DNA from: Thiomicrospira pelophila DSM 1534
GTDB lineage: Bacteria > Pseudomonadota > Gammaproteobacteria > Thiomicrospirales > Thiomicrospiraceae
Direction: 5' to 3'
Length of the DNA: 64,000 nt
Assembly (NCBI RefSeq): GCF_000711195.1
Contig: NZ_JOMR01000001.1
Location: 1,612,001-1,676,000, forward strand
The position numbers and the translations under genes are program-made. The notes below the pieces were generated by a model. That model was given only the letters and a program-made list of their open reading frames with translations. It was not told the DNA's origin and made no database searches. Positions 2,631 to 63,539 of the stretch are shown here, piece after piece; within the stretch, counting starts at the first letter, position 1; each line of letters opens with the position of its first letter.

Positions 2631-2652
2631 AAACCACCAGGCCTGGTGGTTT
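2631..2652. repeat. 22-bp perfect palindrome with ACCAGGCCTGGT core (core 2636-2647)
   Basis: Lies between the convergent panD and motB-type genes. The 12-bp core recurs through the window; here the flanks AAACC/GGTTT extend the symmetry. It can fold into a hairpin in either transcript and may act as a shared terminator. Confidence 0.9.
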
Positions 2653-5061: not shown

Positions 5062-5855
5062 GCTTTCATCTCATGAATCGCCGCCGGAAAACGTCGCTGA
5101 CGCACCGCTTGTGCATAGCTCGCCATGGCTTCCTTAATGCTGCTTGAACCCTGTAAAAAGTTATGGCTAAAGCTTGGCGTATGACCTGGTGTTAATCCCA
5201 GAATATCGTAAACCACCAAAACCTGACCATCAGTATTAGCGCCTGCACCAATGCCAATCACCGGAATTTTTAAGGCTTGGCTAATGCGCTCGGCCAAAGT
5301 TGACGGCACGCACTCTAACACTAGCATATCGACCCCCGCTTCTTGCAAAGCTAAGGCTTCATCAAGCAAACGTTGTGCTTCTGATTCATCTCGACCTTGA
5401 ACTCGGTAACCTTTCTTCAAAACCGACTGGGGTAGCAGGCCCAAATGGCCGCAAACCGGAACCCCCATTTGACTTAACGCCTTCACAAAGGCCAAAACCC
5501 GTGTGCCGCCCTCAAGCTTCACCATATCGGCACCGCCTTCTTTAATCAAACGCCCACTGGTTTGCAACACTTGCTCCAATGTGGCATCCGACATAAAGGG
5601 TAAGTCAGCAATGCACCAGGCCTGGTGCTGATTGCCACGCTGTACCATTTTGGTGTGATACACCATATCATCCACGCTGACAGATAATGTATTCTGGTGG
5701 CCTTGTACCACCATACCCAAAGAGTCACCCACTAACAGAACATCCACTTCCGCCTGAGCTGCCCAATGCGCAAAGGCAGCATCATAGGCCGTCAAGCACA
5801 CAATAGGTTGTGACTGTTTTTTTAAGCTTTGAAAGTAAACCAAATTGCGTTTCAT
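5058..5855 (-). CDS. panB: 3-methyl-2-oxobutanoate hydroxymethyltransferase
   Basis: First committed pantothenate step, transferring a hydroxymethyl group from methylene-tetrahydrofolate to ketoisovalerate. 265 residues, with [11 protein letters not shown] near the start, the metal-binding [14 protein letters not shown] segment and [16 protein letters not shown] near the C-terminus. It follows folK with 18 nt between them and overlaps panC by 4 nt. An exact copy of the window-wide palindrome lies inside the gene and encodes His-Gln-Ala-Trp-Cys. Confidence 0.97.
5613..5628. repeat. 16-bp palindrome GCACCAGGCCTGGTGC inside panB
   Basis: Intragenic copy of the ACCAGGCCTGGT family, read in the Gln-Ala-Trp frame on the minus strand. 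Confidence 0.9.
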
Positions 5856-7901: not shown

Positions 7902-8318
7902 GTGCCGAACAATATTGATGAAGTCCAAGCAGATCTGATTAAGCGTCTGAATTATTTTGAAAACTGGAAAGATCGCTATAAATACATTATCGACATGGGG
8001 AAACAGTTAGACACTATGCCTGAAGAATATAAAACCGAGGCCAACCGAATTCACGGCTGCCAATCGCAGGTTTGGATTCATATAGAAGAACGCGATGGCC
8101 GCCTCTACATGCAAGCCACTAGTGATGCGGCGATTGTCGCCGGTTTGATTGCCGTTTTGCTGCGTGTTTATTCTGGACGTACACCTAATGAAATCATCAA
8201 TATGCCATTAGACTTTTTATCCCAAACTGGTTTATTGCAACATCTATCACCTAACCGTTCAACCGGCCTCTATCATATGATTAAACGTATCCAAGCTGAA
8301 GCTCAATCTCGCGTTTAA
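7902..8318 (+). CDS. sufE: SufE-type cysteine desulfuration protein
   Basis: Accepts sulfur from a SufS/IscS-type cysteine desulfurase for iron-sulfur cluster assembly. The acceptor cysteine is in NRIHGCQSQVW. The GTG at 7902 (VPNNIDEVQADL) is chosen as start because AGGA lies 7 nt upstream; the frame also opens at a TTG at 7851 but that adds a poorly supported leader. 138 residues match the family. No suf or isc genes are adjacent, so the partner desulfurase must be elsewhere. Confidence 0.92.
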   Translation: MPNNIDEVQADLIKRLNYFENWKDRYKYIIDMGKQLDTMPEEYKTEANRIHGCQSQVWIHIEERDGRLYMQATSDAAIVAGLIAVLLRVYSGRTPNEIINMPLDFLSQTGLLQHLSPNRSTGLYHMIKRIQAEAQSRV

Positions 8319-8340
8319 ACAACCAATCCAGCTTCCGCAT

Positions 8341-8378
8341 AAATAAAAAAAGCCCGCTTTAAATCATTAAAGCGGGCT
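8341..8378 (-). terminator. Rho-independent terminator of htpX
   Basis: A 12-bp stem (AGCCCGCTTTAA, 8351-8362, with 8367-8378) and 4-nt loop are followed on the minus strand by a T-rich run, the complement of 8341-8350. The T-run polarity assigns it to htpX. Confidence 0.85.
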
Positions 8379-8385
8379 TGATTAG

Positions 8386-8407
8386 AAAGCACCAGGCCTG
8401 GTGCTTT
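8386..8407. repeat. 22-bp perfect palindrome with ACCAGGCCTGGT core (core 8391-8402)
   Basis: Between convergent sufE and htpX. The flanks AAAGC/GCTTT extend the core. On the plus strand it is followed by a short T/A run, so it may terminate sufE, complementing the minus-oriented terminator beside it. Confidence 0.9.
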
Positions 8408-8427
8408 TATATTACCTAATTTCTCAA

Positions 8428-20759: not shown

Positions 20760-21428
20760 ATGAGCATTGAGATAAAAAACCTAGGGTTGCAAGACTATCA
20801 ATCCACTTGGCAAGCCATGCAAGATTTCACCGCCCAGCGTCACGTCGATACACCTGACCAAATCTGGCTAGTTGAACATCCGCCGGTGTATACCCAAGGC
20901 CTAAATGGCCAGCCAGAACATATCCAACAATCCTTAGGCGATATTCCACTCGTGCAATCCGATCGTGGCGGCCAAATCACCTATCACGCCCCTGGTCAGT
21001 TGATTGTTTATACGCTGATTGATCTCAAGCGCCGTCATCTTGGCGTAAGAGCCTTAGTCAGCTTGCTTGAAAATGCCTGTATCGCCCAGCTCACGGAACT
21101 TGGGATTTCAGCGCAATCTAGGAAAGACGCCCCCGGCATTTATGTTAATAGCCAAAAAATTGCTTCACTGGGTTTAAAAATTAAACGCCAATGCAGTTAT
21201 CATGGCCTGGCCTTAAACGTCAATATGGACTTAAGTCCATTTCAACGCATTACCCCTTGTGGGTTGAGTGGTATGCAAATGACTCAGGTCAGCCTGTACA
21301 ACTCAGAACAAACGGTTCAAAGCCTCGCACCAGGCCTGGTAGATCGCATTCAGCACGGCCTATTAAATTGGCCTATAATAAGCCATCATTTAAACAACGA
21401 AAAAACACAACCCCATCCGATTAGATAG
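20760..21428 (+). CDS. lipB: Octanoyl-ACP:protein N-octanoyltransferase
   Basis: Transfers octanoate from acyl carrier protein to lipoyl domains. 222 residues. Family motifs VQSDRGGQITYHAPGQLIVY, the lysine in QKIASLGLKI and the catalytic cysteine in ITPCGLSG are present. Start taken as ATG 20760; CAGGA, part of a degenerate palindrome (CACCAGGACTGGTG, 20746-20759), serves as ribosome-binding site, and a GTG lies directly in front. An exact palindrome copy near the 3' end encodes Pro-Gly-Leu-Val. Confidence 0.97.
   Translation: MSIEIKNLGLQDYQSTWQAMQDFTAQRHVDTPDQIWLVEHPPVYTQGLNGQPEHIQQSLGDIPLVQSDRGGQITYHAPGQLIVYTLIDLKRRHLGVRALVSLLENACIAQLTELGISAQSRKDAPGIYVNSQKIASLGLKIKRQCSYHGLALNVNMDLSPFQRITPCGLSGMQMTQVSLYNSEQTVQSLAPGLVDRIQHGLLNWPIISHHLNNEKTQPHPIR
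21329..21340. repeat. ACCAGGCCTGGT copy inside lipB
   Basis: Exact 12-bp palindrome read in the Pro-Gly-Leu-Val frame. Confidence 0.9.
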
Positions 21429-23305: not shown

Positions 23306-23360
23306 TAGTCTCAAACTTTGCTTTGCCAGTTTTGCACTGGCAAAGCACCAGGCCTGCTGT

Positions 23361-26085: not shown

Positions 26086-27095
26086 TATTTAGCTTCTCCG
26101 ATTCGAGATACGAGTTTTTGTGTCCAGTTCACTAAATCTCGCATTTCATTATAGTGTGACCCTACTTCGGTGATGTAGTTTAAGGTCGCCGGGATATCGT
26201 TTAAATAGCCGTCCTTGCCATCTCTATGAAACAAACGCGCAAAAATACCTGCGGCTTTTAGGTGGCGCTGAATTCCCATTAAATCCATAGACTTAGCAAA
26301 ACCAGACCATTCCGACTGGGTTAAACGACCAGCCTGGCAAAGCATCAAAAAATATTGTCTTTGCCATTCGCGCACTTGCTCGGCGGGCCATACGATATAA
26401 CAATCCCGCAATAAAGACACGGCGTCATAGGTTAACGCGCCATGCACCGCGTCCTGAAAGTCCAAAATCCCCGGATTGCGCTGTTCGGTTAGCATTAAGT
26501 TTCGGCTATGATAATCGCGATGCACATAAACTTGAGGCTGAGCCAGTGCAGATTCCACCAAGCGATGTTTGACCGACAACCAGGCCTGGTGCTCTAATTT
26601 ATTCATGCCAAGGTCGCAATGACGTTCGCCCAGCCAGTCGGTAAACAAGTCCATTTCGCGATTAAGCAAGGCGGCATCGTAAATCGGCAAATGCGAACTT
26701 TTGGCTTGGGTTTGCAGCACCACTAAGGCACGCAAAGCATCCGTGTAATAGGTTTCGGCATTCGACTCGTTTAAGACTGATAAATAAGTGGTTGATCCTA
26801 AATCGGTCAATAATAAAAAGCCTCGCGTTAAATCCTGCTCGAGAACTTTAGGCACATGTAAACCCAGCGCATCCAATTCGGCCGATACCGCAATAAAGGG
26901 ACGACAATCTTCCTGTTCAGGTGGCGCATCCATAATAATAAAGCTTTGCTGTTGGGTTGGGTCGTTAAATCGAACTCTAAAATAACGCCGAAAACTGGCA
27001 TCACTCGAGGCCGATTCCGGCAAAGACAACTCACCTTGTTTAAAACGGCTCAAACCCGCTAACCAGGTTTGCATTTGTTCAAATCTTAAATCCAT
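26085..27095 (-). CDS. amgK: N-acetylmuramate/N-acetylglucosamine anomeric kinase
   Basis: Phosphorylates recycled MurNAc and GlcNAc at C1, feeding MurU. Aminoglycoside-phosphotransferase fold, 336 residues, with the catalytic loop VHRDYHSRNLML and metal-binding GILDFQDAVHG. Divergent from lptD. An exact palindrome copy encodes His-Gln-Ala-Trp. Confidence 0.93.
   Translation of the reverse strand: MDLRFEQMQTWLAGLSRFKQGELSLPESASSDASFRRYFRVRFNDPTQQQSFIIMDAPPEQEDCRPFIAVSAELDALGLHVPKVLEQDLTRGFLLLTDLGSTTYLSVLNESNAETYYTDALRALVVLQTQAKSSHLPIYDAALLNREMDLFTDWLGERHCDLGMNKLEHQAWLSVKHRLVESALAQPQVYVHRDYHSRNLMLTEQRNPGILDFQDAVHGALTYDAVSLLRDCYIVWPAEQVREWQRQYFLMLCQAGRLTQSEWSGFAKSMDLMGIQRHLKAAGIFARLFHRDGKDGYLNDIPATLNYITEVGSHYNEMRDLVNWTQKLVSRIGEAK
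26579..26590. repeat. ACCAGGCCTGGT copy inside amgK
   Basis: Exact 12-bp palindrome read in the Gln-Ala-Trp frame on the minus strand. Confidence 0.9.
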
Positions 27096-27253: not shown

Positions 27254-29602
27254 ATGTCAATTTTTTCCAAGTTATCCCTTGTTTGGTTTGCGCTCACCAC
27301 TAGCAGTTTGGCGTATTCCCAAACCGCTCAGTTAATGCCAAGTCCAGATAACCCTTGTCTACCGGAGTGGATTGCTACCCCGCAAACCCTACCGCCATCT
27401 GGTTCGTTGACTCAAGTGGAAGGCGACCAATTACTTCAAACCCAGTCTAATCAAATCACCCTAACCGGTCACGTACGTTTATCAGAACCAGGCCTGGTGG
27501 TATTAAGCAATCAATTATTTTATGATCGAGATAACCAACATATTCGTGCGTTTGGTCAGGTTGAACTTCACCAGAAAAATACTATCTTATTAGGCGAGCA
27601 AGCGGAATTCAATCAGTCCAACCAAATCGGTTTCATAAATCAAGTTCAATACCAACTTTCTGAAAGCCGCGCTCATGGATCCGCAGAACGTCTAGAGTTT
27701 AATCAAACTAAACGCATCAGCCACTTAAACCAAGCCAGCTTTACTACCTGCCCATTAACCGATCCGGCTTGGAACATGCACTTTGGCGAATTAGAAATTA
27801 ATGACCCTAAACGCCGCTTGTACGGTTATAACACCTGGCTTGAATTCAAAGGTGTACCCATTTTTTACACGCCCTACATTGATATTCCGTTGGATGATCG
27901 AGCCAGCGGTTTTTTATTCCCCTACATCGGCAACCATAAAACCGCGGCTCAAAGTCAGCCAGAACCTCTATCGGTGGTCGCCGCGCCCTACTATTTTAAT
28001 ATCGCCCCCAATATGGATGACACCCTCACCTTAATAGGCATTCAAGATCGTGGTGTGGTGTTGGACAATGAGTTTCGCTATTTGCAGCCCAACCATAGCG
28101 GCGAACTGCAATTTAGCCTACTGCAAGATCAACTCGCCAATAGTGAAGGCTTACGTTATGTTGATCGCAGTGGCGACATCATCACCGAACAACCGCTTTC
28201 TGAACGCTGGCGTATCAGCTACGCAGGCCGCCAAAACTGGGGCGCCGGTTTTAGTTCAAGCTTAAACTGGCAAGAAGTATCTGACCCGGATTTCTATAAC
28301 GATATTCCACTCTCATTTACGGCCTCCGAGTCTCGTATTGGTTCACAAACCACCACCATTAACCGAAGTGCGCGTTTAAGTTTTAACCGCGGACCAATAC
28401 AAGCTCATATTCAACACTATGGCTATTTGCCCTTACGAAATGGTGAGCGTAACTATCTCGAGAAAACGCCCGAAGTTGGATTTAATCTGGGTCAGAGTTT
28501 CGGTGCTGTTCGTACCAATCTATATTTAGAAACGACTGAATTTAAACGTTATGACGGCTTTAATGACTTCTTGGAAGATGGCCATGTCAGTGGACAAACC
28601 TCTACCGGTGTCATGGGACGGCGTAGTTTAGCGATACCCAGCCTTCAATACCAATTAAACCGCCCCTATGCGCGCCTGCAAGCACAAGTACAAGCCAACT
28701 ACCGTGAATACGATCTAATTAACGCAGCAGATACGGCCTCAACAGACAATACCGTAATGCAATATGCCTTACGTGGTGGTTTGTTTTTTGAACGTGATGT
28801 CAGTCTATTCAATACCGACTTCATCCAAACCCTTGAGCCAGAAGTGCAATGGCTTTATGTTCCTTACGTTGACCAGAGTCATTTGCAACGTTTTGATACC
28901 GGGCGCACAAGCCTTGATTTTAGCAACCTTTTTCAACTTAATCGTTTCTCAGGTTTTGACCGCATTGGTGACACTCAACAAATCAGCACCGCCCTCACCA
29001 CAAGATTACTTAACCAAACCGGTTTACCGCTGGCCGATGCGGCTATCGGGCAAGTGTTTTATTTAGCGGATAGAGAGGTCGAACTGGACAGCAATCAGAT
29101 TCAAGACGACCCGCGTTCTGACTATTTTGTTCGCCTAAGCACCAATCTAAAATCATTTAATTTTGCCTCCACCAGTCAATACGACTACCAAACCACCGAA
29201 CTCACACAAATGCAAAACCGGATAAAATGGCAAGCATTTAATCGTGTCGAATTTTTAGCCGTTCATCAAGCTTTAAACCTAAATGCCGATTCGACTTTAG
29301 ATGACACAGAAAGCGTCAATCGCCGCCAACAAACAGTCGGTGCTGGCTTAATGCTTGGCTTAACTTCTAAATGGCAGCTCGCCAGTTACCTGAACTACGA
29401 TTTTCAAAAAAAGGTGCGCCGTGAGTTTCTCGGCGGGCTACGTTATGATAGTTGCTGCTGGGCTTCAGAGCTGGTATTTGAGCAACGACAATTGGCGGAT
29501 GGTCGATACAATGCCTCGGTTAACTTAGTGTTCGAACTCAAAGGTCTAAGTACCGTCGGCAGCCGAATGCGTGATACCATTCAAAACACTCTCAACTTTT
29601 AA
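27254..29602 (+). CDS. lptD: LPS-assembly outer-membrane protein LptD
   Basis: Outer-membrane barrel that inserts lipopolysaccharide into the outer leaflet. 782 residues: signal peptide (LSLVWFALTTSSLAYSQ), N-terminal jellyroll of the OstA type (about residues 55-150), then the barrel. The four cysteines that form the maturation disulfides are present at Cys35, Cys166, Cys734 and Cys735 (DSCCW). It leads the lptD-surA-pdxA-rsmA-apaH run. An exact palindrome copy at 27487 encodes Pro-Gly-Leu-Val. Confidence 0.97.
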   Translation: MSIFSKLSLVWFALTTSSLAYSQTAQLMPSPDNPCLPEWIATPQTLPPSGSLTQVEGDQLLQTQSNQITLTGHVRLSEPGLVVLSNQLFYDRDNQHIRAFGQVELHQKNTILLGEQAEFNQSNQIGFINQVQYQLSESRAHGSAERLEFNQTKRISHLNQASFTTCPLTDPAWNMHFGELEINDPKRRLYGYNTWLEFKGVPIFYTPYIDIPLDDRASGFLFPYIGNHKTAAQSQPEPLSVVAAPYYFNIAPNMDDTLTLIGIQDRGVVLDNEFRYLQPNHSGELQFSLLQDQLANSEGLRYVDRSGDIITEQPLSERWRISYAGRQNWGAGFSSSLNWQEVSDPDFYNDIPLSFTASESRIGSQTTTINRSARLSFNRGPIQAHIQHYGYLPLRNGERNYLEKTPEVGFNLGQSFGAVRTNLYLETTEFKRYDGFNDFLEDGHVSGQTSTGVMGRRSLAIPSLQYQLNRPYARLQAQVQANYREYDLINAADTASTDNTVMQYALRGGLFFERDVSLFNTDFIQTLEPEVQWLYVPYVDQSHLQRFDTGRTSLDFSNLFQLNRFSGFDRIGDTQQISTALTTRLLNQTGLPLADAAIGQVFYLADREVELDSNQIQDDPRSDYFVRLSTNLKSFNFASTSQYDYQTTELTQMQNRIKWQAFNRVEFLAVHQALNLNADSTLDDTESVNRRQQTVGAGLMLGLTSKWQLASYLNYDFQKKVRREFLGGLRYDSCCWASELVFEQRQLADGRYNASVNLVFELKGLSTVGSRMRDTIQNTLNF
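27487..27498. repeat. ACCAGGCCTGGT copy inside lptD
   Basis: Exact 12-bp palindrome read in the Pro-Gly-Leu-Val frame. Confidence 0.9.
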
Positions 29603-32418: not shown

Positions 32419-33279
32419 GTGGCAACCTACATTATTGGTGACTTACAGGGTTGCTTTGACCCGTTACAACAATTGTTGGAAAAAATTAACTATCAGCCTA
32501 AACAGGATGAACTTTGGTTTGTGGGTGATATTGTTAACCGTGGACCCCAATCGTTAGAGTGTTTACGCTTTGTAAAGTCTCTAGGTGAGCGCGGCCAAAT
32601 GGTATTAGGTAACCACGACTTCCATCTGCTCGCCGCCTCCAGCGGTTTAGAAAAATACCGCTCCAAGTCTGACACGCTCGAAGACATATTCAATGCGCCA
32701 GATCACGATGAACTGATTGATTGGTTGCGTCAACAACCCTTAATGGTTCGCCACCCGACCCAGCCTATAGCGATGGTTCACGCCGGTATTCCGCCTCAAT
32801 GGACGGTTGATCAAGCCGCCATCCATGCAAATGAAGTCCAACAGATTATGCGCTCAGATGATTGGCGTGAATTTATTACCCAGCATTTGTTCGGTTCCAA
32901 AACCAAAGTTTGGCATGATGCCCTCACCGGCTGGGAAAGGTTGCGCTATATTGTGAATGCGTTTGCGCGCATGCGTTATTGCAACGCCCAAGGTGAATTG
33001 GACTTTGACCTAAAAGGCGCCCCCGACAAGCACACCCATGCCGAGCACCAGGCCTGGTTTTTACACACCAACCGCCGCAATAAAGATCACGAAATCTTTT
33101 TTGGTCACTGGTCAACCCTAGGCGCCATGGATGCCTATCAAGTGCATGCTACCGATACCGGCTGCTTATGGGGCGGTCAACTCACCGCATTTTGTCTTGA
33201 AACTCGAGTTCGCCACACGCTGAATTGTGAGCAAATGAGTAAACCTAAAAAATCGAAGGTAGCGAAGAAGTCATTATGA
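32419..33279 (+). CDS. apaH: Symmetrical bis(5'-nucleosyl)-tetraphosphatase
   Basis: Hydrolyses Ap4A. 286 residues with the metallophosphatase motifs GDLQGCFDPLQQLL, VGDIVNRGP and LGNHDFHLL, and HAGIPP later. GTG start. An exact palindrome copy at 33047 encodes His-Gln-Ala-Trp. The last codons overlap the next gene by 4 nt. Confidence 0.97.
   Translation: MATYIIGDLQGCFDPLQQLLEKINYQPKQDELWFVGDIVNRGPQSLECLRFVKSLGERGQMVLGNHDFHLLAASSGLEKYRSKSDTLEDIFNAPDHDELIDWLRQQPLMVRHPTQPIAMVHAGIPPQWTVDQAAIHANEVQQIMRSDDWREFITQHLFGSKTKVWHDALTGWERLRYIVNAFARMRYCNAQGELDFDLKGAPDKHTHAEHQAWFLHTNRRNKDHEIFFGHWSTLGAMDAYQVHATDTGCLWGGQLTAFCLETRVRHTLNCEQMSKPKKSKVAKKSL
33047..33058. repeat. ACCAGGCCTGGT copy inside apaH
   Basis: Exact 12-bp palindrome read in the Gln-Ala-Trp frame. 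Confidence 0.9.
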
Positions 33280-33872: not shown

Positions 33873-33908
33873 ATTTACACAAGCACCAGGCCTGGTGCTT
33901 GTGTAAAT
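33873..33908. repeat. 36-bp perfect palindrome around ACCAGGCCTGGT (core 33885-33896)
   Basis: The longest member of the family: 18 bases each side of the centre at 33890/33891 are fully complementary. It lies between the convergent membrane-protein gene and trpB and would form a strong hairpin in both transcripts. Confidence 0.95.
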
Positions 33909-33924
33909 CTAATTATTTAAGATC

Positions 33925-35127
33925 TTAGACCTGAGTCGCAAACCCAAAATTCTCGGTAACATAATCAATATCTTTATCACCACGTCCTGATAAGTTAATC
34001 AGAATCGTTGACCCTGGATTTTCACGGCCATGACGCATCGCCCACGCCACCGCATGCGCACTTTCTAACGCAGGGATAATACCTTCAGAGCGCGACAACT
34101 CAAAAAATGCGTCCAGAGTTTCTTGGTCGGTTGCACCATGATACTTAACCCGCCCTTCCGTTTTCAAATACGAATGTTCCGGCCCCACGCCCGGATAATC
34201 CAAACCCGATGCAATCGAATGAACCGGTGCCGGATTGCCTTCGGCATCCGACAACAACATACACTTAAAGCCATGAATCATACCTGGTTCACCATAGGTC
34301 ATGGTGGCCGAATGCTCACCCAAATTCGTGCCTTTGCCGAGTGGCTCAACCCCGTTTAAGCCCACATTTTGATCTTCAATAAAGCCGGCAAACATACCCA
34401 TCGCATTGGAACCCCCGCCAACACAAGCACCCACCTCATCTGGCAGTTCACCCACCATCTCTAAAAACTGTTCGCGCGACTCATGCCCCACCACTGATTG
34501 GAAGTTACGCACCATCATCGGAAATGGATGTGGCCCCACCACCGAACCTATTGCAAATAATGCGGTGTCCGCTTGGGGGACATAAGACTGAAAAGCCGAA
34601 TCCACCGCTTCTTTTAAACTTCGCCCACCAAAACTAACTGGCACAACATTTGCACCCAATAGTTTCATACGTGTCACGTTTGGGGCTTCTTTGGCAATAT
34701 CGATTTCACCCATGTGAATTTCGCATTCCATACCAAAATAGGCGGCCGCGGTCGCTAAGGCTACGCCATGTTGACCTGCTCCGGTTTCGGCAATCAGCTT
34801 GGTTTTACCCATGTGTTTCGCTAACAAAGCCTCAGCCATACAGTGGTTTAACTTATGTGCACCGGAATGGTTTAAATCTTCGCGTTTAAGGTAAATATGC
34901 GCCCCCACCTGCTTGCTGATATTGTGCGCATAATACACAGGCGTTGGACGACCTTGATAATGTTTACGGATGTATTTAAGTTCATTTAAAAAGTCCGCTG
35001 AACGCCCCAAAGTTAAATAGGCTTTGTTAATTTCCTCAAAGTGTGGCACTAACTCTGGCGGTAAAAACGCCCCACCAAACTCGCCAAAATAACCTTCCTG
35101 ATTGGGAAACTGCTTTAAGTAAGACAT
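33925..35127 (-). CDS. trpB: Tryptophan synthase beta chain-like protein
   Basis: PLP enzyme condensing indole and serine to tryptophan. 400 residues with the PLP lysine in [12 protein letters not shown], the catalytic glutamate in [12 protein letters not shown], the phosphate loop [13 protein letters not shown] and [15 protein letters not shown]. Two conserved spots differ from mainstream TrpB: HKLNHC where HKINNA is usual, and VEPLGKG where VEAGG is usual. No trpA is adjacent, although trpB normally lies next to it. It may be a second, stand-alone beta-type enzyme. Confidence 0.88.
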
Positions 35128-37048: not shown

Positions 37049-37300
37049 ATGGCGACCATTACTGTAATCGGCCAAGGCACCTGCGAATTTGACGGCGAAT
37101 TCTCATTATTAGAAGCATTAGACGAACAAGGCTTTGATATGCCCTATAGCTGCCGTGGTGGAAACTGTGGTGCGTGCGAAGTCAAACTGGTTTCGGGTGA
37201 CGTCGAATACATTCAAACACCGGCTTACGATTGCGACAAAGGCTTTGTTTTAACCTGTAGCGTAATTCCAACCTCGGATATTGAAATCGAAATACTCTAA
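37049..37300 (+). CDS. 2Fe-2S ferredoxin, YfaE-like
   Basis: 83 residues, plant-type ferredoxin with cluster cysteines in YSCRGGNCGACEVKLVSG (Cys35, 40, 43) and a fourth in LTCSVIP. Length and the DIEIEIL end resemble YfaE, which maintains the class Ia ribonucleotide reductase radical, but no nrd genes are nearby. AAGAGGAAA precedes the ATG; TGCTAGAAT ending at 37014 is a possible extended -10. Confidence 0.9.
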   Translation: MATITVIGQGTCEFDGEFSLLEALDEQGFDMPYSCRGGNCGACEVKLVSGDVEYIQTPAYDCDKGFVLTCSVIPTSDIEIEIL

Positions 37301-37320
37301 TCAACGCAATCAAACTTAAA

Positions 37321-37336
37321 GCACCAGGCCTGGTGC
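37321..37336. repeat. 16-bp palindrome GCACCAGGCCTGGTGC after the ferredoxin gene
   Basis: Intergenic copy of the palindrome family. Unlike other convergent junctions, a separate ordinary terminator lies 27 bp downstream, so this copy is not needed for termination. Confidence 0.9.
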
Positions 37337-37363
37337 GGTTCAAATTGTTAAATTTAGGACATA

Positions 37364-37391
37364 AAAAAACCCAGCCTAGGCTGGGTTTTTT
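37364..37391. terminator. Bidirectional terminator between ferredoxin gene and pstS
   Basis: A 28-bp perfect palindrome (CCCAGCCTAGGCTGGG core) with six As before and six Ts after, so it terminates both converging transcripts. Confidence 0.92.
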
Positions 37392-37405
37392 GTCATTGGC
37401 TGAGC

Positions 37406-38542: not shown

Positions 38543-38570
38543 AGCTAAGCACCAGGCCTGGTGCTTAGCT
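38543..38570. repeat. 28-bp perfect palindrome with ACCAGGCCTGGT core (38551-38562)
   Basis: Between phoR and the pstS promoter, both on the minus strand. The flanks AGCTAAGC/GCTTAGCT extend the symmetry. It would end the pstC-phoR transcript before pstS. Confidence 0.93.
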
Positions 38571-39940: not shown

Positions 39941-39952
39941 ACCAGGCCTGGT
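39941..39952. repeat. ACCAGGCCTGGT copy between phoB and phoR
   Basis: An exact 12-bp palindrome that touches the last base of the phoB stop codon. It lies in a co-transcribed gap, so it cannot act as a strong terminator there. Confidence 0.9.
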
Positions 39953-42335: not shown

Positions 42336-42363
42336 GTCGAACCACCAGGCCTGGTGGTTCGAC
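42336..42363. repeat. 28-bp perfect palindrome with ACCAGGCCTGGT core (42344-42355)
   Basis: Between pstA and pstB in the same operon. Flanks GTCGAACC/GGTTCGAC extend the core. There is no T-run, so it may stabilise or punctuate the mRNA rather than end it. Confidence 0.93.
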
Positions 42364-42368
42364 GGCTA

Positions 42369-44018
42369 TTAATTTTCTAACGCTTTATATTTTTCACGCA
42401 GACGATTTCGAATCGAAATCGCGCCTAAATTCAGCGACACAATCACCAACACCAATAATAAAGAGGTCGCGTAAACCAACGGCTGAGATGCTTCAACATT
42501 TGGACTTTGGAAGCCGACATCATAAATATGGAAACCTAGATGCATGAACTTTTGATCCAAGTGCACAAACGGTGCATTCAAGCTGACCGGTAATTCAGAT
42601 ACCAACTTAACCACGCCCACCAACATCAAAGGCGCAACTTCACCCGCGGCGCGCGCAATCGCTAAAATCAGCCCCGTCATAATAGCCGGCGTTGTTAAGG
42701 GCAACACGATGCGCATAATCACCTCAGCGCGAGTCGCGCCCAAGGCTAAGCCGCCCTCCCGCAAAGCACGTGGCACACGTGACAAACCTTCCTCAGTAGA
42801 CACAATCACCACCGGCAAGGTAAGTAACGCCATGGTTAGCGCCGCCCAAAGCAGGCCTGGTGTACCAAATGTTGGGGTTGGTAAGGCATAGCTATAAAAC
42901 ATCTGGTCAATTGAATGACCCAAGACATACACAAAAAAGCCCAAACCAAAAATACCAAATACAATGGATGGCACCCCGGCCAAATTATTAATCGAGATAC
43001 GAACCAAACGTAATAGCCAACCTTCACGTGCATACTCACGCATGTAAATCGCGGCAATCACGCCCATTGGCATAACAAACAAGGTCATTAACACCACCAT
43101 GGTTAAGGTACCAACAATAGCGGGGAAAACACCGCCTTCAGTATTTGCTTCGCGCGGATTATCAAATAGGAAGTGACCAATCGAGCCCATGAAAAACCCA
43201 AACTTTTGATCAAAACGCATTTCATTCGGCTGCCATGAGCGCACCATGTTTTTAATAGGTACTTGAACTTGTTGGCCACCCGCGACCATGATCGTGGCCT
43301 CACCTTGTTGATTTAACTCGGTATACATTTCATCCAGGCCCGCTTTCAGGGTTTGATACTGCGCCTCTAATTTGGCTTTTTCCTGTTCAATACGCTGGGC
43401 ATCGGCTTGGGTAAAGCTATTCGCCATTTCTAACTTTCGTTGTTCATAGCGAAGCGATTGCAGCTGGTAGTTGATCGCGCCCACATCCATCTTTTCAATC
43501 GCATTTATTTTAGTGCGCAGTTTTTCTGAAGCCGCGATACGCTTAGCTAAGGCTTCCTCTACGCCTTCACCCGCCGCTACCACTTCGCCGTTTTTTCTCA
43601 CCTCATGCACATAACCGTATAGATTGCCCCACTCGTGACGCTCAATCACCGTAATACCCTGCGCCAAGGACCAGGCCTGGTTATTAATGTCTTTTTCGCT
43701 AATCCAACGGAAATCCAAACCATATAAGTCGCGGTTGCCAGTTTTAATCAACAACTGGGGTTCTTTAACTTTAAAACCCGGCTTGTCTGGATTATCAAAC
43801 TCTTTAATGCGCGTGTTGTGGATTTCACCCGTCACCACTTCCGATTGGGCTGGTGCTGAAGCCGCCATTTCAAAGTTATAGACTTCATGTGGCCAAAAAT
43901 GACTTAAGCCACGAACGGCAATCAACATTAATAGGCCAAACACCAGTACGACCGCTACACTCACCGCAGAGGCACTAAACCAAACCCAGTGTTCACCTTT
44001 GTTAAACCATGCTTTCAT
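42369..44018 (-). CDS. pstA: Phosphate ABC transporter permease PstA, enlarged
   Basis: 549 residues, against about 295 in E. coli. One N-terminal membrane helix (VSVAVVLVFGLLMLIAVRG) is followed by a periplasmic insert to about residue 290 that contains a long charged coiled coil (RYEQRKLEMANSFTQADAQR), matching DUF3333-type PstA. The permease domain follows (GTLTMVVLMTLFVMPMGVIA, and the EAA-type loop GLALGATRAEVIMRIVLP). It holds one exact palindrome copy (Asn-Gln-Ala-Trp) and one degenerate copy. Confidence 0.95.
   Translation of the reverse strand: MKAWFNKGEHWVWFSASAVSVAVVLVFGLLMLIAVRGLSHFWPHEVYNFEMAASAPAQSEVVTGEIHNTRIKEFDNPDKPGFKVKEPQLLIKTGNRDLYGLDFRWISEKDINNQAWSLAQGITVIERHEWGNLYGYVHEVRKNGEVVAAGEGVEEALAKRIAASEKLRTKINAIEKMDVGAINYQLQSLRYEQRKLEMANSFTQADAQRIEQEKAKLEAQYQTLKAGLDEMYTELNQQGEATIMVAGGQQVQVPIKNMVRSWQPNEMRFDQKFGFFMGSIGHFLFDNPREANTEGGVFPAIVGTLTMVVLMTLFVMPMGVIAAIYMREYAREGWLLRLVRISINNLAGVPSIVFGIFGLGFFVYVLGHSIDQMFYSYALPTPTFGTPGLLWAALTMALLTLPVVIVSTEEGLSRVPRALREGGLALGATRAEVIMRIVLPLTTPAIMTGLILAIARAAGEVAPLMLVGVVKLVSELPVSLNAPFVHLDQKFMHLGFHIYDVGFQSPNVEASQPLVYATSLLLVLVIVSLNLGAISIRNRLREKYKALEN
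43670..43681. repeat. ACCAGGCCTGGT copy inside pstA
   Basis: Exact 12-bp palindrome read in the Gln-Ala-Trp frame on the minus strand. Confidence 0.9.
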
Positions 44019-49985: not shown

Positions 49986-50009
49986 CATACCACCAGGCCT
50001 GGTGGTATG
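49986..50009. repeat. 24-bp perfect palindrome with ACCAGGCCTGGT core (49992-50003)
   Basis: Between the convergent olsF-like and plcP-like genes. Flanks CATACC/GGTATG extend the core. Confidence 0.93.
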
Positions 50010-54056: not shown

Positions 54057-56558
54057 ATGAATATATTTAATCGCCTTACAATTGGTTCACGACTTTGGTT
54101 AAACCTATTTTTAACCTTAGTTTTTATCACTTTTGTCACCCTAACCTCTTGGTTGGCGACTCATCAGTCGGCTCAACAATCCAATCAGTTAGTTAATAAA
54201 GAGCAAAAAATTACCAAGCGTATCGCTGAATTTCATAAAGGTTTCATCACCACCTTACAGCAGTCAAATAACTTTGTGCTGACCGGCACAGAAGCGCACG
54301 GCCAAGCCTTTAATGAAATGATTGATCAACAAAAAAAATCACTTTATAGCCTAATCGCCGATCTAGGCGCGTCAGTTGAATTTGACCAATCCGGTTTTCT
54401 AGCGTTTACAGAAGAACACACCGGTAAACACACCGCGATTATTCAAGCCCTGTTTCCGCTTGATCGCGTATTACAAAACCTCGAAAAATCCACCAATTCA
54501 AATGTGTTTATGAAAGAACGCATCGGTCAATCAATTGAATTTGGTTTAGATTTAAGTGCGAATAACCTCAGCCAAGATTTTAAAGACGTCTTGCCGCTTA
54601 TCGAAGATCAACCAGGCCTGGTGACTCACTTAGACGAGTTGCAAACACGTCTTGAAAAGTCACAACTATTGGCCGCAAAAATGATTGCAACCCAAGACTC
54701 CAGTCTTAAGCAAGAATTTGACGAACAAGGGTTAGGTTTTGCCGCCAGCCCGCTGGTAAAAGAAATTGTTGAACCTTTTAGCGCGGATTTATTTAACGGT
54801 GAAGCCGCTCGCAACTTAGACAGTCACCATGCCGAATACATGGATGCCTTTGGCGATTTGCGCGACACCCTCACCACCATGTCACAAAACAATCAAAGCT
54901 TGGCCGAACTATCCGAATCCGGCAACCTGATTTTATTAGACCTAATGTCTGACCTACAAAACCAAAGTTTAAGCGCACTCCAGCAGCTTGAAAGCGCGAG
55001 TTTAACGCAAGAAAATCGTCTTATTTTAATCGGGATTTTCGCCGTATTAGTATTGCTAACATTAAGCTTTAGCATTAGCCGTTCGATTGTCCAGCCCTTA
55101 ATTCGTATGCGCGACCAAGTATTACAAGTCGCACAAACCGGCCAATTTAATCAGTCAAAAATCCTCAATGGTAAAAACGAACTGGCTGAGATGAGTCAAG
55201 CACTGCAAGGTTTATTACAATCCGTTTCTCAAGCATTAAATGAAATCAAGACGGTCAGCCACTCTCTCGCTCAAGGTGAAACAGATCAACGCATGAGCCT
55301 AAATTACAACGGTGATTTATTACTACTGAGTCAAGCCTTTAACCAGAGTCTCAATTCGGTGGATGCGACCTTAAACGAAATCGCTCAGGTCAGTCATGCA
55401 TTAGAAGCGGGTGAACTATCCATCAATATCGACCTGTCTAGCCATTCCGGTCAATTTTCGCATGTTCTTAACGCCATGATGAATGCTTTATCCGTGCAAA
55501 AACAAGCGATTGATGGCGTGCGCCATGTTACTCATGCGATGCGCGCTGGTGATTTTGGACAACGTGTTGAAATTGATATGCCCGGAGAATTGCACAATTT
55601 AAAGCGTTACCTTAATGAATCGTTGGAACGCTTAGAAAACGCCATTAATAGCAAATCCATCGCGCTAAAAGCTTACAGCCAAGGCGATTTTTCTCACCAA
55701 AACGACCACGAGTTTGAAGGTAAACTGCAAGAACTCAACACCCACATGTTGAACATGGCACAAAGCGTGAGTTATATGTTACAAGACGTCAAACACGCCA
55801 CCGACCATGCGGTACACGGAATTAAAGAGATCAGCTCGGGCAATCAAGACCTTAATCACCGCGTGCAAAAACAAGCCGCCGCTGTGCAAAATACCAGTGC
55901 GAATATGTCACTGATGTTAAGTTCTGTGCGCGAAACCTTAAATGAAGCCAACCAAGTAACCCACTCAACCGATCAAGTCCAACAAGACTCGCAATCAGGC
56001 CTGGTGATTGTTGAGCAGATGGTGCAAGCCATGCAAGACATTCAACAAGCCAGCCAACAAATTGCGCAGATTACCGGTTTGATTGATAGCATTGCATTCC
56101 AAACCAATCTACTCGCACTCAATGCGGCCGTGGAAGCGGCTCGCGCTGGTGAAGCCGGACGTGGTTTTGCGGTGGTGGCGACCGAAGTTCGCAACTTGGC
56201 ACAGCGGTCCGCCGAAGCCGCCCAACAAATCCGTCAAGTCACCGATACCAATATGCAACGAATTGATCACGGCATGCAATTAAGTCAACAAACCCAAAGT
56301 GTGTTTGAACAAAACACCGCTTCAATTGAAGGCATTGCCAAGATGATTTTGAAAATGAACAAAGCACTCGAACTCCAGAGCCACGGCATTAAAGAAGTCA
56401 CTGATGCGCTTAGCGAAATCGACGAATCTACCCAACAAAACGCCGCACTGGTCGAGCAAATATCCACCACCTCATCGCATATTATCGAAGAAGTGCTCGG
56501 ACTCGAAACCAAAGTAAGCGGTTTTAAGCTAATCAAGAACACCAAACAAGCGGCCTAA
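54057..56558 (+). CDS. Methyl-accepting chemotaxis protein
   Basis: 833 residues. N-terminal helix ([21 protein letters not shown]), a helical periplasmic domain of about 290 residues, a second helix ([19 protein letters not shown]), then several HAMP-like stretches in series and the signalling hairpin with [19 protein letters not shown] and [15 protein letters not shown]. No C-terminal CheR-tether pentapeptide is seen. ATG 54057 is preferred over TTG 54036 because GGAG lies 10 nt upstream. The ligand is unknown. Confidence 0.95.
54611..54622. repeat. ACCAGGCCTGGT copy inside the chemoreceptor gene
   Basis: Exact 12-bp palindrome read in the Pro-Gly-Leu-Val frame; a degenerate second copy (TCAGGCCTGGTGA) lies near 55995 in the same frame. 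Confidence 0.9.
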
Positions 56559-60794: not shown

Positions 60795-63539
60795 TTAACC
60801 CATTAATTCATGCCATATCGCGCTTGTCTCGGCGCGTTCAATCACAAATTCTTTGGCACTCACTATGGCCTTTTGTTTTTGTAAAGCTAAACGATGATAC
60901 GCACTTCGGTAAGTTCGATAATGATCTTGTAATTTTTCAATCGCGTCGTTCGATAAAATACCCGAATCTTTCAGTTCATCCAAAATTCGCATATTGTCGG
61001 AATAGACCACCAGGCCTGGTTGTTGATGCGCAAAGGCTAAAACCAAATATTGCACGATAAACTCAATATCCACAATCCCGCCAGTTCCATGCTTTAAGTC
61101 AAACTCATGTTCATTTGACTTATCTAACCCTTCTCGCATTTTGCGGCGCATTTCGGCTACTTCAGCTTGAACTTTGGTCGCATCACGTGGCTGAGTTAGG
61201 AAGGCTGTCCTAAACGCTTCAAAATGTGACCTAACTTGATCGGAACCCACCACCGCACGTGCTCGAATTAAAGCTTGATGCTCCCAGTTCCAGGCTTTTT
61301 CTTTCTGATATTGTTCAAAATTCTTTAAGGTTATGACCATCAAACCGCTTGCGCCATTTGGGCGTAAACGTGTGTCAATTTCATACAACTGACCGGCCGG
61401 CATTAAGGTCGTCAGCACCGAAATTATTTTTTGCCCCATGCGGGTAAAAAACGTGGCGTAATCCAGCGATCGTTGATTTTCCTGGCTGGCTTGAGTTTTT
61501 GCATCACTTGCATCCAGGTCGTATAAAAACACCACATCCAAATCTGACCCATAGCCCAACTCAATCCCACCTAGCTTGCCATAACCCAGTACCAAAAATG
61601 GCGACTCAGATTGCCCAGCGGGCAAGCCATGTTTGGCGGTCATTTTCTGCCAAACATAATCATGTGTAACATTTAGCACGGCTTCGGCAATCCAAGTTAA
61701 ATAATCACTCACATGCATCACCGGTACTTGTCCTGTAATATCCCCTGCGCCCACTCGGAATACTTGGGCGTGACGCCAATGACGCAGCTGCAACATAAAT
61801 TGCTCTTCGTCATCACCATAGGTGGTTAATAAGGTTTGCGCTTCAGCGAGTAATTCTTTTAACTCAAGTGGTCGATACAAACTACGCAGGTCCAACAATT
61901 GATCCATCAAGGCCGGATATTTAACCAGCATATCCGTTAACCATGGACTGGCCGCACACAACTTAATTAAATGCGCCAACGCGACTGGGTTTTCTTTTAA
62001 CAACACCAAATACACACTGCGACGTACCACACTTTCAATCACACTTAAGGCACGTTGCAATGCGATTTCTTGGTTATCTTCCTGACCAGCCAATTGTTTT
62101 AATAACAACGGCATTACGTGCTCTAATCGAGTGGTCGCTTCGGCACTCATCTGCCCGACAGAGCGCGCCTTTTTAAATTGGCGCAATAAATTCAAAATTT
62201 CGCCCGGCTTATGGAAACCAAACTGCGTCAAAATCACCAGCGCGTCATCTTCAAGCGGTCCCTTCCATGCCTGTGCCAACGCATCCGTTAAATCGCACAC
62301 ATCGGCTTCCTCAGCAAACACATCGTCAAAGTGCTGTTGTACGATTTGGCGATAGTCATTGAGTTGTTGCATAAACTCCGCATAGTTGGCAAAGCCCATG
62401 GCTTCGGCTAACACTTGTCGTTGCGCTTCGTCATCAGGTAGATCATGAGTTTGTTGGTCGTTCCATTCTTGCAGACGATTTTCGGCACGACGTAAAAACA
62501 CATAGGCCGCTTTAAGCTCCTCAGCATCTTGGGTCGCAATATAATCCTGCTCTGCCAAGTATTGCAGCATGGGTAATAACGAACGCCCTTGTAGCACCTT
62601 ATCTCGGCCACCATGCACCAATTGGAAGGCTTGCACGATAAATTCTATTTCGCGAATGCCGCCCGCCCCCAACTTTATGTTATTTTCCATGCTCTTCTTG
62701 CGCACTTCGGTTTTAATCATTCGCTTTAAATCACGTAACGAATCCATCGCGGTGTAATCGACATAACGGCGATAAACAAACGGACGCAAAATTTCAAATA
62801 ACTCTTGCGCCTTGTCCCTATCCCCTGCTATTGCACGTGCTTTCACTAGTGCATAACGCTCCCACGCTCGGCCATGCATTTCATAATAATGCTCGCTACC
62901 CGCAAAACTTATCGCTAATGGGCCGGCCTCGCCAAATGGACGCAAGCGCATATCCACACGATACACAATGCCTTCGGGCATCATTTCGGTTAGCATTTTG
63001 TTTAGCATCTGCCCTAGTTTGGCGAAAAACTGGTCATTCGACATCGCCCGCGCACCGTCCGTTTGACCGCTTTCAGCGTAAACAAAAATCAAATCAATAT
63101 CGGACGAAAAGTTAAGTTCATAGCCGCCGAGTTTCCCCATTCCCAATACAATTAAAGTTTGAGCTTCACCGGATTCCTGCCCAATTGGTGTGCCGTATTT
63201 TTCGCAGAAACGTGGATACAACCAATCCAATGCGCCTGACACCAAGCCATCCGCCAAATCGGAAACATCACGCATGGTTTCATTCAAATCCGCCAAACCA
63301 GCCAAATCACGCACTGCAATACGCACCATCTGCTCACGTCTGAGTTGGCGTAGCATTTGTTTGAGTGCCAATTCCGACTCACAAGCCAATAAGGCTTCAC
63401 GGCATTCGGCTACCAATTCATTCGGTTGATACAGTCGTTCATAATTGAGCTCGATCAGTTCTGGATAACGCTGATATTCACGTTCGACAAACAAACTCCA
63501 AGGCGTAACCGACTCGATTAATGAACGCGCATCATGCAT
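60795..63539 (-). CDS. glnE: Glutamine synthetase adenylyltransferase/deadenylase
   Basis: Adds and removes AMP on Tyr397 of glutamine synthetase under PII control. 914 residues with two nucleotidyltransferase domains: the N-terminal removase with GMGKLGGYELNFSSDIDLIF and the C-terminal transferase with GYGKLGGIELGYGSDLDVVF, both with intact DxD. It overlaps the upstream methyltransferase gene by 8 nt. An exact palindrome copy near the 3' end encodes Pro-Gly-Leu-Val. Confidence 0.97.
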   Translation of the reverse strand: MHDARSLIESVTPWSLFVEREYQRYPELIELNYERLYQPNELVAECREALLACESELALKQMLRQLRREQMVRIAVRDLAGLADLNETMRDVSDLADGLVSGALDWLYPRFCEKYGTPIGQESGEAQTLIVLGMGKLGGYELNFSSDIDLIFVYAESGQTDGARAMSNDQFFAKLGQMLNKMLTEMMPEGIVYRVDMRLRPFGEAGPLAISFAGSEHYYEMHGRAWERYALVKARAIAGDRDKAQELFEILRPFVYRRYVDYTAMDSLRDLKRMIKTEVRKKSMENNIKLGAGGIREIEFIVQAFQLVHGGRDKVLQGRSLLPMLQYLAEQDYIATQDAEELKAAYVFLRRAENRLQEWNDQQTHDLPDDEAQRQVLAEAMGFANYAEFMQQLNDYRQIVQQHFDDVFAEEADVCDLTDALAQAWKGPLEDDALVILTQFGFHKPGEILNLLRQFKKARSVGQMSAEATTRLEHVMPLLLKQLAGQEDNQEIALQRALSVIESVVRRSVYLVLLKENPVALAHLIKLCAASPWLTDMLVKYPALMDQLLDLRSLYRPLELKELLAEAQTLLTTYGDDEEQFMLQLRHWRHAQVFRVGAGDITGQVPVMHVSDYLTWIAEAVLNVTHDYVWQKMTAKHGLPAGQSESPFLVLGYGKLGGIELGYGSDLDVVFLYDLDASDAKTQASQENQRSLDYATFFTRMGQKIISVLTTLMPAGQLYEIDTRLRPNGASGLMVITLKNFEQYQKEKAWNWEHQALIRARAVVGSDQVRSHFEAFRTAFLTQPRDATKVQAEVAEMRRKMREGLDKSNEHEFDLKHGTGGIVDIEFIVQYLVLAFAHQQPGLVVYSDNMRILDELKDSGILSNDAIEKLQDHYRTYRSAYHRLALQKQKAIVSAKEFVIERAETSAIWHELMG
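61009..61020. repeat. ACCAGGCCTGGT copy inside glnE
   Basis: Exact 12-bp palindrome read in the Pro-Gly-Leu-Val frame on the minus strand; the only copy after 56 kb. Confidence 0.9.

Follow-up and report, generated by a model that had tools for sequence, protein, structure and literature searches.

In the 64-kb stretch of DNA analysed here (the window), a perfect palindrome of 36 bp (33873..33908) lies in a gap of 55 nt on which a hypothetical gene (+ strand) and a second trpB gene (− strand) converge. Its center is a 12-bp core (33885-33896) that recurs with other flanks elsewhere in the window. What keeps this core in place, and why does it sit within such a long symmetric sequence between two gene ends? 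Here, we follow the palindrome from the window to the genome and to the family.

RESULTS

Palindromes of the window

A sequence-only reading of the window had listed six palindromes, and we recovered all of them with the same start and length: 2631 (22 bp), 8386 (22 bp), 49986 (24 bp), 38543 (28 bp), 42336 (28 bp), and 33873 (36 bp). In addition to the 36-mer, the copies at 2631..2652 (panD/motB), 8386..8407 (sufE/htpX, adjoining a separate classical terminator hairpin), and 49986..50009 (olsF/plcP) are in convergent gaps, as is a 16-bp palindromic copy at 37321..37336 (ferredoxin-like/pstS); a degenerate copy, GCACCAGGCCTGCTG, is found at 23345..23359 in the convergent hslO/yaaA gap, with another hairpin alongside. 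The copies at 38543..38570 and 42336..42363 are outside the convergent junctions; phoR/pstS and pstA/pstB, between which they lie, are co-directional. A 12-bp core copy marks the phoB/phoR boundary (39941..39952). Inside genes, we found a 16-bp palindromic copy at 5613..5628 and core copies at 21329..21340, 26579..26590, 27487..27498, 33047..33058, 43670..43681, 54611..54622, and 61009..61020. The gene names used for the ORFs of the window (phoR, pstS, pstA, pstB, and the others) are presumptive.

The sequence-only reading had also stated that nearly every convergent junction has a copy. This describes the window reasonably well, with copies at five of the eight junctions, or six if the degenerate copy is counted, but not the genome, in which 56 of 179 convergent gaps have one. 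The window junctions were delimited by a crude gene caller; at the two that have no copy of either kind, the genes are 21 and 15 nt apart.

As RNA, the 36-mer is predicted to fold into a hairpin of −24.0 kcal/mol (+ strand) or −25.6 kcal/mol (− strand), with z values of −5.2 and −5.8. Using one fixed U-tail score with a threshold, applied per arm direction, we found that its U-tails are weak (best scores, 2.45 and 2.47) and that the threshold is reached only with a tail that begins inside the palindrome. The two co-directional 28-mers also give strong hairpins (−22.6 kcal/mol for 38543..38570 and −25.3 kcal/mol for 42336..42363). The copy at 42336, which probably sits inside an operon, has poor U-tail scores (1.74 and 1.71), and its hairpin could possibly be an attenuator or a stabilising hairpin. 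The gap containing the copy at 37321 also holds a perfect palindrome of 28 bp that lacks the core (37364..37391) and consists of an A-tract, a stem, and a T-tract; it is not a member of the motif family but an ordinary bidirectional terminator adjoining a motif copy.

The trpB gene next to the 36-mer (33925-35127, − strand) is a second copy; the other one in the genome (697608-698789) is 52% identical to it. A full-length match of 92% identity was found in G040, a genome of genus g6, versus 88% in G006 and G008 of the own genus, while partial matches within the own genus reach 94% (G002) and 91% and 85% (G004). The closer relationship to G040 than to the own-genus full-length matches may, as far as these identities tell, reflect exchange between genera.

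The core is a genome-wide repeat in part of one family

What the sequence-only reading saw as individual palindromes is, at its core, a repeat of the whole genome and of much of the family, which it overlooked: the 12-bp palindrome ACCAGGCCTGGT is present in 613 copies in the genome of 2,108,215 bases. In 1.264 Mb, we counted 376 copies, compared with a mean of 0.15 and a maximum of 3 for control palindromes of the same composition, which were obtained by shuffling the ACCAGGCCTGGT half-site in sixty draws; the next commonest 12-bp palindrome in the same 1.264 Mb has 4 copies. Copies are spread along the chromosome in a near-Poisson manner (variance/mean of 1.20 for 32 bins of 50 kb in the first 1.6 Mb).

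All nine genomes of the own genus have between 181 and 688 copies. Among the 62 genomes of the family surveyed, 27 have 84 to 718 copies, 5 have 6 to 38, and 30 have 0 to 3. By genus, the motif-rich genomes amount to 9/9 in the own genus, 7/11 in g6, 10/32 in g3, 1/1 in g4, and 0/9 in g2, g5, and g7 together. A search with PstS in named genomes gave relatives of ∼72% identity, some of them labelled Thiomicrorhabdus; two genomes with this label have zero copies. Outside the family, each of 365 genomes drawn from the class has at most 5 copies. No substitute over-represented word stood out in the motif-poor relatives G010 (79 kb) and G052 (120 kb). In the first 140 kb of G041, word counts are dominated by the 12-mers of an unrelated long repeat, each present ∼28 times. 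No virus was enriched; 20 IMG/VR stretches contain CACCAGGCCTGGTG, once each. Among the literature matches listed, which cover text other than hyphenated, supplementary, and subscription text, there was no report of the ACCAGGCCTGGT motif, and none of the top-ranked papers prints the full 12-mer.

Most copies are intragenic and occupy permissive places

To place the copies relative to genes, we applied a crude gene caller based on ORFs to 2.064 Mb, or 97.9% of the genome; it gave 1888 genes and 91.4% coding sequence. Of 604 copies, 408 are in coding sequence and 196 are intergenic, the latter comprising 61 convergent, 115 co-directional, and 20 divergent copies. In terms of density, convergent gaps come first with 2.93 sites/kb, followed by co-directional gaps (1.06), divergent gaps (0.46), and coding sequence (0.22). 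Counting gaps of at least 20 nt with a copy, the convergent figure given above compares with 100/729 for co-directional and 20/222 for divergent gaps.

In coding sequence, the 268 copies of the 1.264 Mb are distributed over the three frames as 119, 116, and 33; the peptides that the motif imposes include xQAWx, xPGLV, and TRPGx. For comparison with orthologues, we kept 59 site-genome comparisons with an identity of at least 45%, a coverage of at least 0.7, and a site no closer than 10 residues to either end of the alignment. At the sites, residue identity is 0.40 versus 0.62 at random places in the same alignments, and gaps occur in 13/59 versus 60/2723. Coding copies, therefore, occupy places where orthologues vary, i.e., protein-permissive places, as do those of DUS and USS. 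In G020, a genome of a different genus, 7 of 39 testable sites have the exact 12-mer in the same position; over all comparisons, the figure is 7/59, versus 27/2723 when 12-mers of matching phase are picked at random. Point substitution together with tolerated small insertions fits the coding copies better than the movement of a unit. A copied element as the origin was ruled out: flanks differ between sites, and the copies therefore did not multiply as units.

Arms were lengthened locally around a fixed core

The intergenic copies share a consensus beyond the core, with G at ±7 (0.77), G or C at ±8 (0.80), T at ±9 (0.83), and T at ±10 (0.61), and coding copies have the same preferences in weaker form (G, 0.54 at ±7; T, 0.61 at ±9). 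These preferences suggest that the recognised word is ∼20 bp, AASCACCAGGCCTGGTGSTT. Because the consensus accounts for part of the arms up to approximately ±10, the copies of 22 bp at 2631 and 8386 depart little from it. Pairing that varies from site to site is seen at ±8, in the choice between G and C, and at ±10 to ±13.

At these positions, the arms of intergenic copies (n = 196) covary beyond what column composition predicts, with z values of 4.5, 3.5, 4.0, 2.8, and 3.1 at ±8, 10, 11, 12, and 13, respectively, while the corresponding values for coding copies (n = 408) are 0.7, −0.4, −0.8, 0.8, and 2.0, i.e., a weak signal at ±13 alone. The sequence-only reading had argued from the differing flanks that symmetry grew locally around a fixed core; the flanks are indeed site specific, and covariation of the arms in intergenic copies, but hardly in coding ones, bears this out.

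The genome (2.064 Mb analysed) has 61 perfect palindromes of at least 22 bp, and 55 of these contain the core; the longest measure 48, 42, 40, 38, 36, and 36 bp, making the 36-mer of the window joint fifth. As a null for arm length, we exchanged entire 3′ flanks at random between the 196 intergenic copies of the 2.064 Mb in 2000 shuffles. A half-length of at least 18 (36 bp) was observed six times versus 0.035 times on average in the shuffles (never more than 1), and a half-length of at least 11 was observed 42 times versus 4.95 on average (never more than 14). By position, long arms, i.e., a half-length of at least 11, occur in 26/61 of the convergent and 16/115 of the co-directional copies, in 0/20 of the divergent ones, and in 13/408 of those in coding sequence; shuffled flanks predict 2.4, 2.3, 0.4, and 3.1, respectively. 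Convergent and divergent copies differ significantly (Fisher p = 1.7e-4); between co-directional and divergent copies, the difference is not significant (p = 0.13). The excess in coding copies was reached in 0/500 shuffles, and 5 of the 13 long-armed coding copies belong to the 258 copies deep inside long genes (at least 600 nt, with >150 nt to either gene end). The coding excess counts against selection at 3′ ends as the sole cause of long arms.

Copies at 3′ ends and transcription termination

The suggestion that the palindromes double as bidirectional terminators gains from the high convergent density, the long arms, the U-tails, and the smaller number of other terminators, but it does not extend to every copy. 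U-tails reach the threshold in 42/122 convergent directions, compared with 3/40 divergent and 20/816 coding directions. For co-directional copies, the count is 19/115 in the 3′-end direction and 12/115 in the antisense direction; convergent directions exceed the antisense co-directional ones (p = 1.1e-5), while the excess of 3′-end over antisense directions among co-directional copies is not significant (p = 0.25). Convergent 3′ ends that have a copy are less often accompanied by another U-tailed hairpin (25/104) than convergent 3′ ends without a copy (89/216; p = 0.0028); the counts for co-directional ends are 15/97 with and 124/539 without a copy. At the 3′ end of trpB, comparison of 28 orthologues, including that of the window, showed a U-tailed hairpin within 160 nt in 15, the full motif in 3 (the own genome, G020, and G013), and both in none; the hairpin finder skips loops of >8 nt, and one such hairpin is visible in L203. 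In the window, a classical terminator shares the gap with a copy in two cases (8318-8427 and 37300-37405), i.e., for two of the five intact convergent copies.

Altogether, the terminator reading is supported statistically and not copy by copy; termination itself is what we infer from position, arm covariation, and U-tails. The weak or poor U-tails of the 33873 and 42336 copies, the pstA/pstB position of the latter, and the neighbouring terminators suggest that some copies are probably terminators, while others are perhaps mRNA stabilising or attenuating. Because 408 of the 604 copies are intragenic, termination is not supported as the reason for the motif.

The motif in a second genus

In 400 kb of G020, which has 81 copies, the convergent enrichment recurs: 15 of 38 convergent gaps have a copy, and the densities are 1.75 sites/kb in convergent, 0.92 in co-directional, and 0.21 in divergent gaps. 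Arm growth was not reproduced in these 400 kb, as a half-length of at least 11 is found in 1/14 convergent and 5/26 co-directional copies, and arm covariation was absent, with no z above 1.4 and a value of −2.6 at ±12 in 42 intergenic copies. The G020 consensus consists of the core, any base at ±7, A at ±8 (0.87 of intergenic copies), and, further out on either side, an A/T tract; the own genome has the same core flanked by G, S, T, and T at ±7 to 10. Judging by the two genomes compared, the core is fixed and its flanks appear to form a genus dialect.

DISCUSSION

Comparison with known repeats

The motif resembles the DUS of Neisseriaceae and the USS of Pasteurellaceae in the over-representation of a short word (∼10 to 12 bp) to hundreds or thousands of copies, many of them coding and in permissive places. 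Passages of PMC3630211 and PMC1852404 describe for DUS and USS permissive coding places, dialects along phylogeny, and intergenic copies that act as terminators through inverted pairs. According to the relevant passages of PMC1939737, the uptake sequences described are not palindromes. In DUS and USS, hairpins form from two inverted copies of a non-palindromic word (PMC3630211 and PMC1939737, in the same passages), whereas here a single copy is a palindrome, and its arms in the own genome have been lengthened locally. In its genomic behaviour, the motif resembles an uptake sequence; its symmetry does not fit, and its membership among DUS and USS would be putative. Both the symmetry and the density, which at ∼1 per 3.4 kb is lower than for the uptake sequences of Neisseria and Haemophilus, count against an uptake role.

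As a short, GC-rich, perfect palindrome that is highly iterated, mostly coding, and lost in some relatives, the motif also resembles HIP1 and the alternate HIPs of cyanobacteria, which are described as palindromes tied to a cognate methyltransferase and lost in some relatives (PMC4390886). It differs from HIPs in that the over-represented site is at least 12 bp and not 6 and in that, for PF00145, PF01555, and PF02086, no cognate methyltransferase is found across the own genus. By this comparison, the motif joins a distribution of the DUS/USS type to a symmetry of the HIP type.

With bidirectional intrinsic terminators, the motif shares the location at convergent gene ends, the strong symmetric hairpin at gene 3′ ends (the window hairpins fold strongly, and copies are enriched at convergent ends), and U-tails in part of the convergent directions; unlike in these, the core is fixed in sequence, the stem is long, the U-tail is weak, and most copies are intragenic. 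REP/BIME elements resemble the motif in having many palindromic intergenic copies close to 3′ ends. They lie outside genes, however, and move as units, and the motif differs from them in its largely coding location and site-specific flanks.

A proposed uptake-type sequence with co-opted 3′-end copies

We propose that a sequence-specific drive keeps ACCAGGCCTGGT at ∼600 copies genome-wide and that this drive would be self-recognition in natural transformation, with the motif serving as an uptake-type sequence read by a receptor of two-fold symmetry. Copies at 3′ ends would then have been co-opted, with point changes on both arms lengthening the palindrome until a strong hairpin could form in the transcript of either strand and end the mRNA or protect it; where two genes converge, a single palindrome could serve both. 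We give this reading as a whole, i.e., a palindromic self-recognition sequence with 3′-end copies co-opted as hairpins, a probability of roughly 0.55. The uptake or self-recognition part taken by itself we hold tentatively and at somewhat below even odds. A further reading, which we regard as possible but doubtful, would make the motif the first palindromic uptake sequence: it would be maintained in several genera within a single family of gammaproteobacteria, its 12-bp core staying constant while the flanks differ by genus, it would be gained or lost as a whole, and its intergenic copies would have been extended arm by arm into two-way hairpins.

A drive is supported by the abundance of the motif, its restriction to one family, the permissive intragenic sites, the fixed core, and its retention in some G020 orthologues. 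ComEC is present in 55/60 and DprA in 60/60 family genomes, and both are present in the own genome (DprA at 2084931-2085548); a motif scan of 97.9% of the own genome, a portion that excludes the DprA locus, gave no match for ComEA. The own genome also encodes prepilin-type proteins and, by motif alone, a PilT-like ATPase and a prepilin-peptidase-like ORF; the prepilin-like protein tested has matches in 57/60 family genomes. Competence machinery is thus present as in DUS and USS carriers, but none of ComEC, DprA, the tested prepilin, and PF00145 separates motif-rich from motif-free genomes among the 60, and the genes examined yielded no candidate for an uptake receptor. Competence is possible, and the presence of these genes points to no receptor. 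Judging by translations, loci of the own genome resemble an MSHA-type pilus cluster (955574-965861), a Tad/Flp cluster (1699239-1707542), and a prepilin-type gene group (564515-567684), in the last of which two of three proteins have the Pfam N-methylation domain.

Alternative explanations

The hundreds of copies could also be sites for a dimeric DNA-binding protein that has no part in uptake, whether one that organises the chromosome or another, with the hairpins being secondary. The two-fold symmetry over ∼20 bp, which is partly retained in coding copies, and the symmetric flank of different sequence in G020 would suit such a protein. However, copies do not cluster along the first 1.6 Mb, divergent and thus promoter-bearing gaps have the lowest intergenic density (0.46/kb), and no candidate DNA-binding protein was identified, so that we consider this explanation unlikely, although it deserves to be kept in mind. 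An origin of the HIP1 type, in which a DNA methyltransferase and methylation-dependent repair make and keep the palindrome with no role in uptake, would account for a GC-rich palindrome that is mostly intragenic and missing from some relatives; HIPs have been linked to methyltransferases (PMC4390886), and within the core are the words GGCC and AGGCCT and, twice, CCWGG. Yet the C5 methyltransferase family PF00145 is found in 0/9 own-genus genomes and PF02086 in 1/9, while PF01555 is above the cut-off in 5/9 and absent at E ≤ 0.001 from three, including G002, which has 660 copies and none of the three families at E ≤ 0.001. Moreover, AGGCCT outside CAGGCCTG is at background, with 349 occurrences versus 388.7 expected (105 versus 111.6 in G020), from which it follows that the drive does not act on the 6-bp site; a 6-bp restriction or methylation site as the unit was ruled out on the same counts. 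The background frequency of AGGCCT, together with the finding that no one of the three methyltransferase families is common to the nine own-genus genomes, speaks against an origin of this kind, which we judge to be very improbable.

The other alternatives concern the arms and the hairpins. Long arms could have grown by mutation, for instance by template switching that perfects imperfect palindromes, and not by selection of RNA hairpins; the excess of long arms in coding copies (13 versus 3.1), including those deep inside long genes (5/258), is what such a process would leave. Against it, divergent gaps, which are without coding constraint, have long arms in 0/20 copies compared with 26/61 in convergent gaps, and the U-tails at convergent ends follow the direction of transcripts. 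We therefore regard mutational growth as a quite unlikely explanation. To the idea that the copies are no more than intrinsic terminators multiplied into a family, we give almost no credence: the hairpins do fold well and concentrate in convergent gaps, but two-thirds of the copies (408/604) are intragenic, where U-tails are rare (20/816 directions), and site-specific flanks speak against multiplication as units.

Implications

Returning to the reading of an uptake-type sequence with co-opted 3′-end copies, if the drive is uptake, then this family would add a third lineage to those that mark their own DNA, and its marker would be of a new symmetry, which would imply that the receptor recognises DNA as a dimer. 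Because motif-rich and motif-free genomes occur side by side in one family, they offer a natural comparison for finding this receptor. The motif is also usable as a marker of phylogeny and of DNA exchange. Whatever the drive, the compensatory changes in the arms around a fixed core present a clear case of how a repeated DNA word is turned, site by site, into RNA hairpins.
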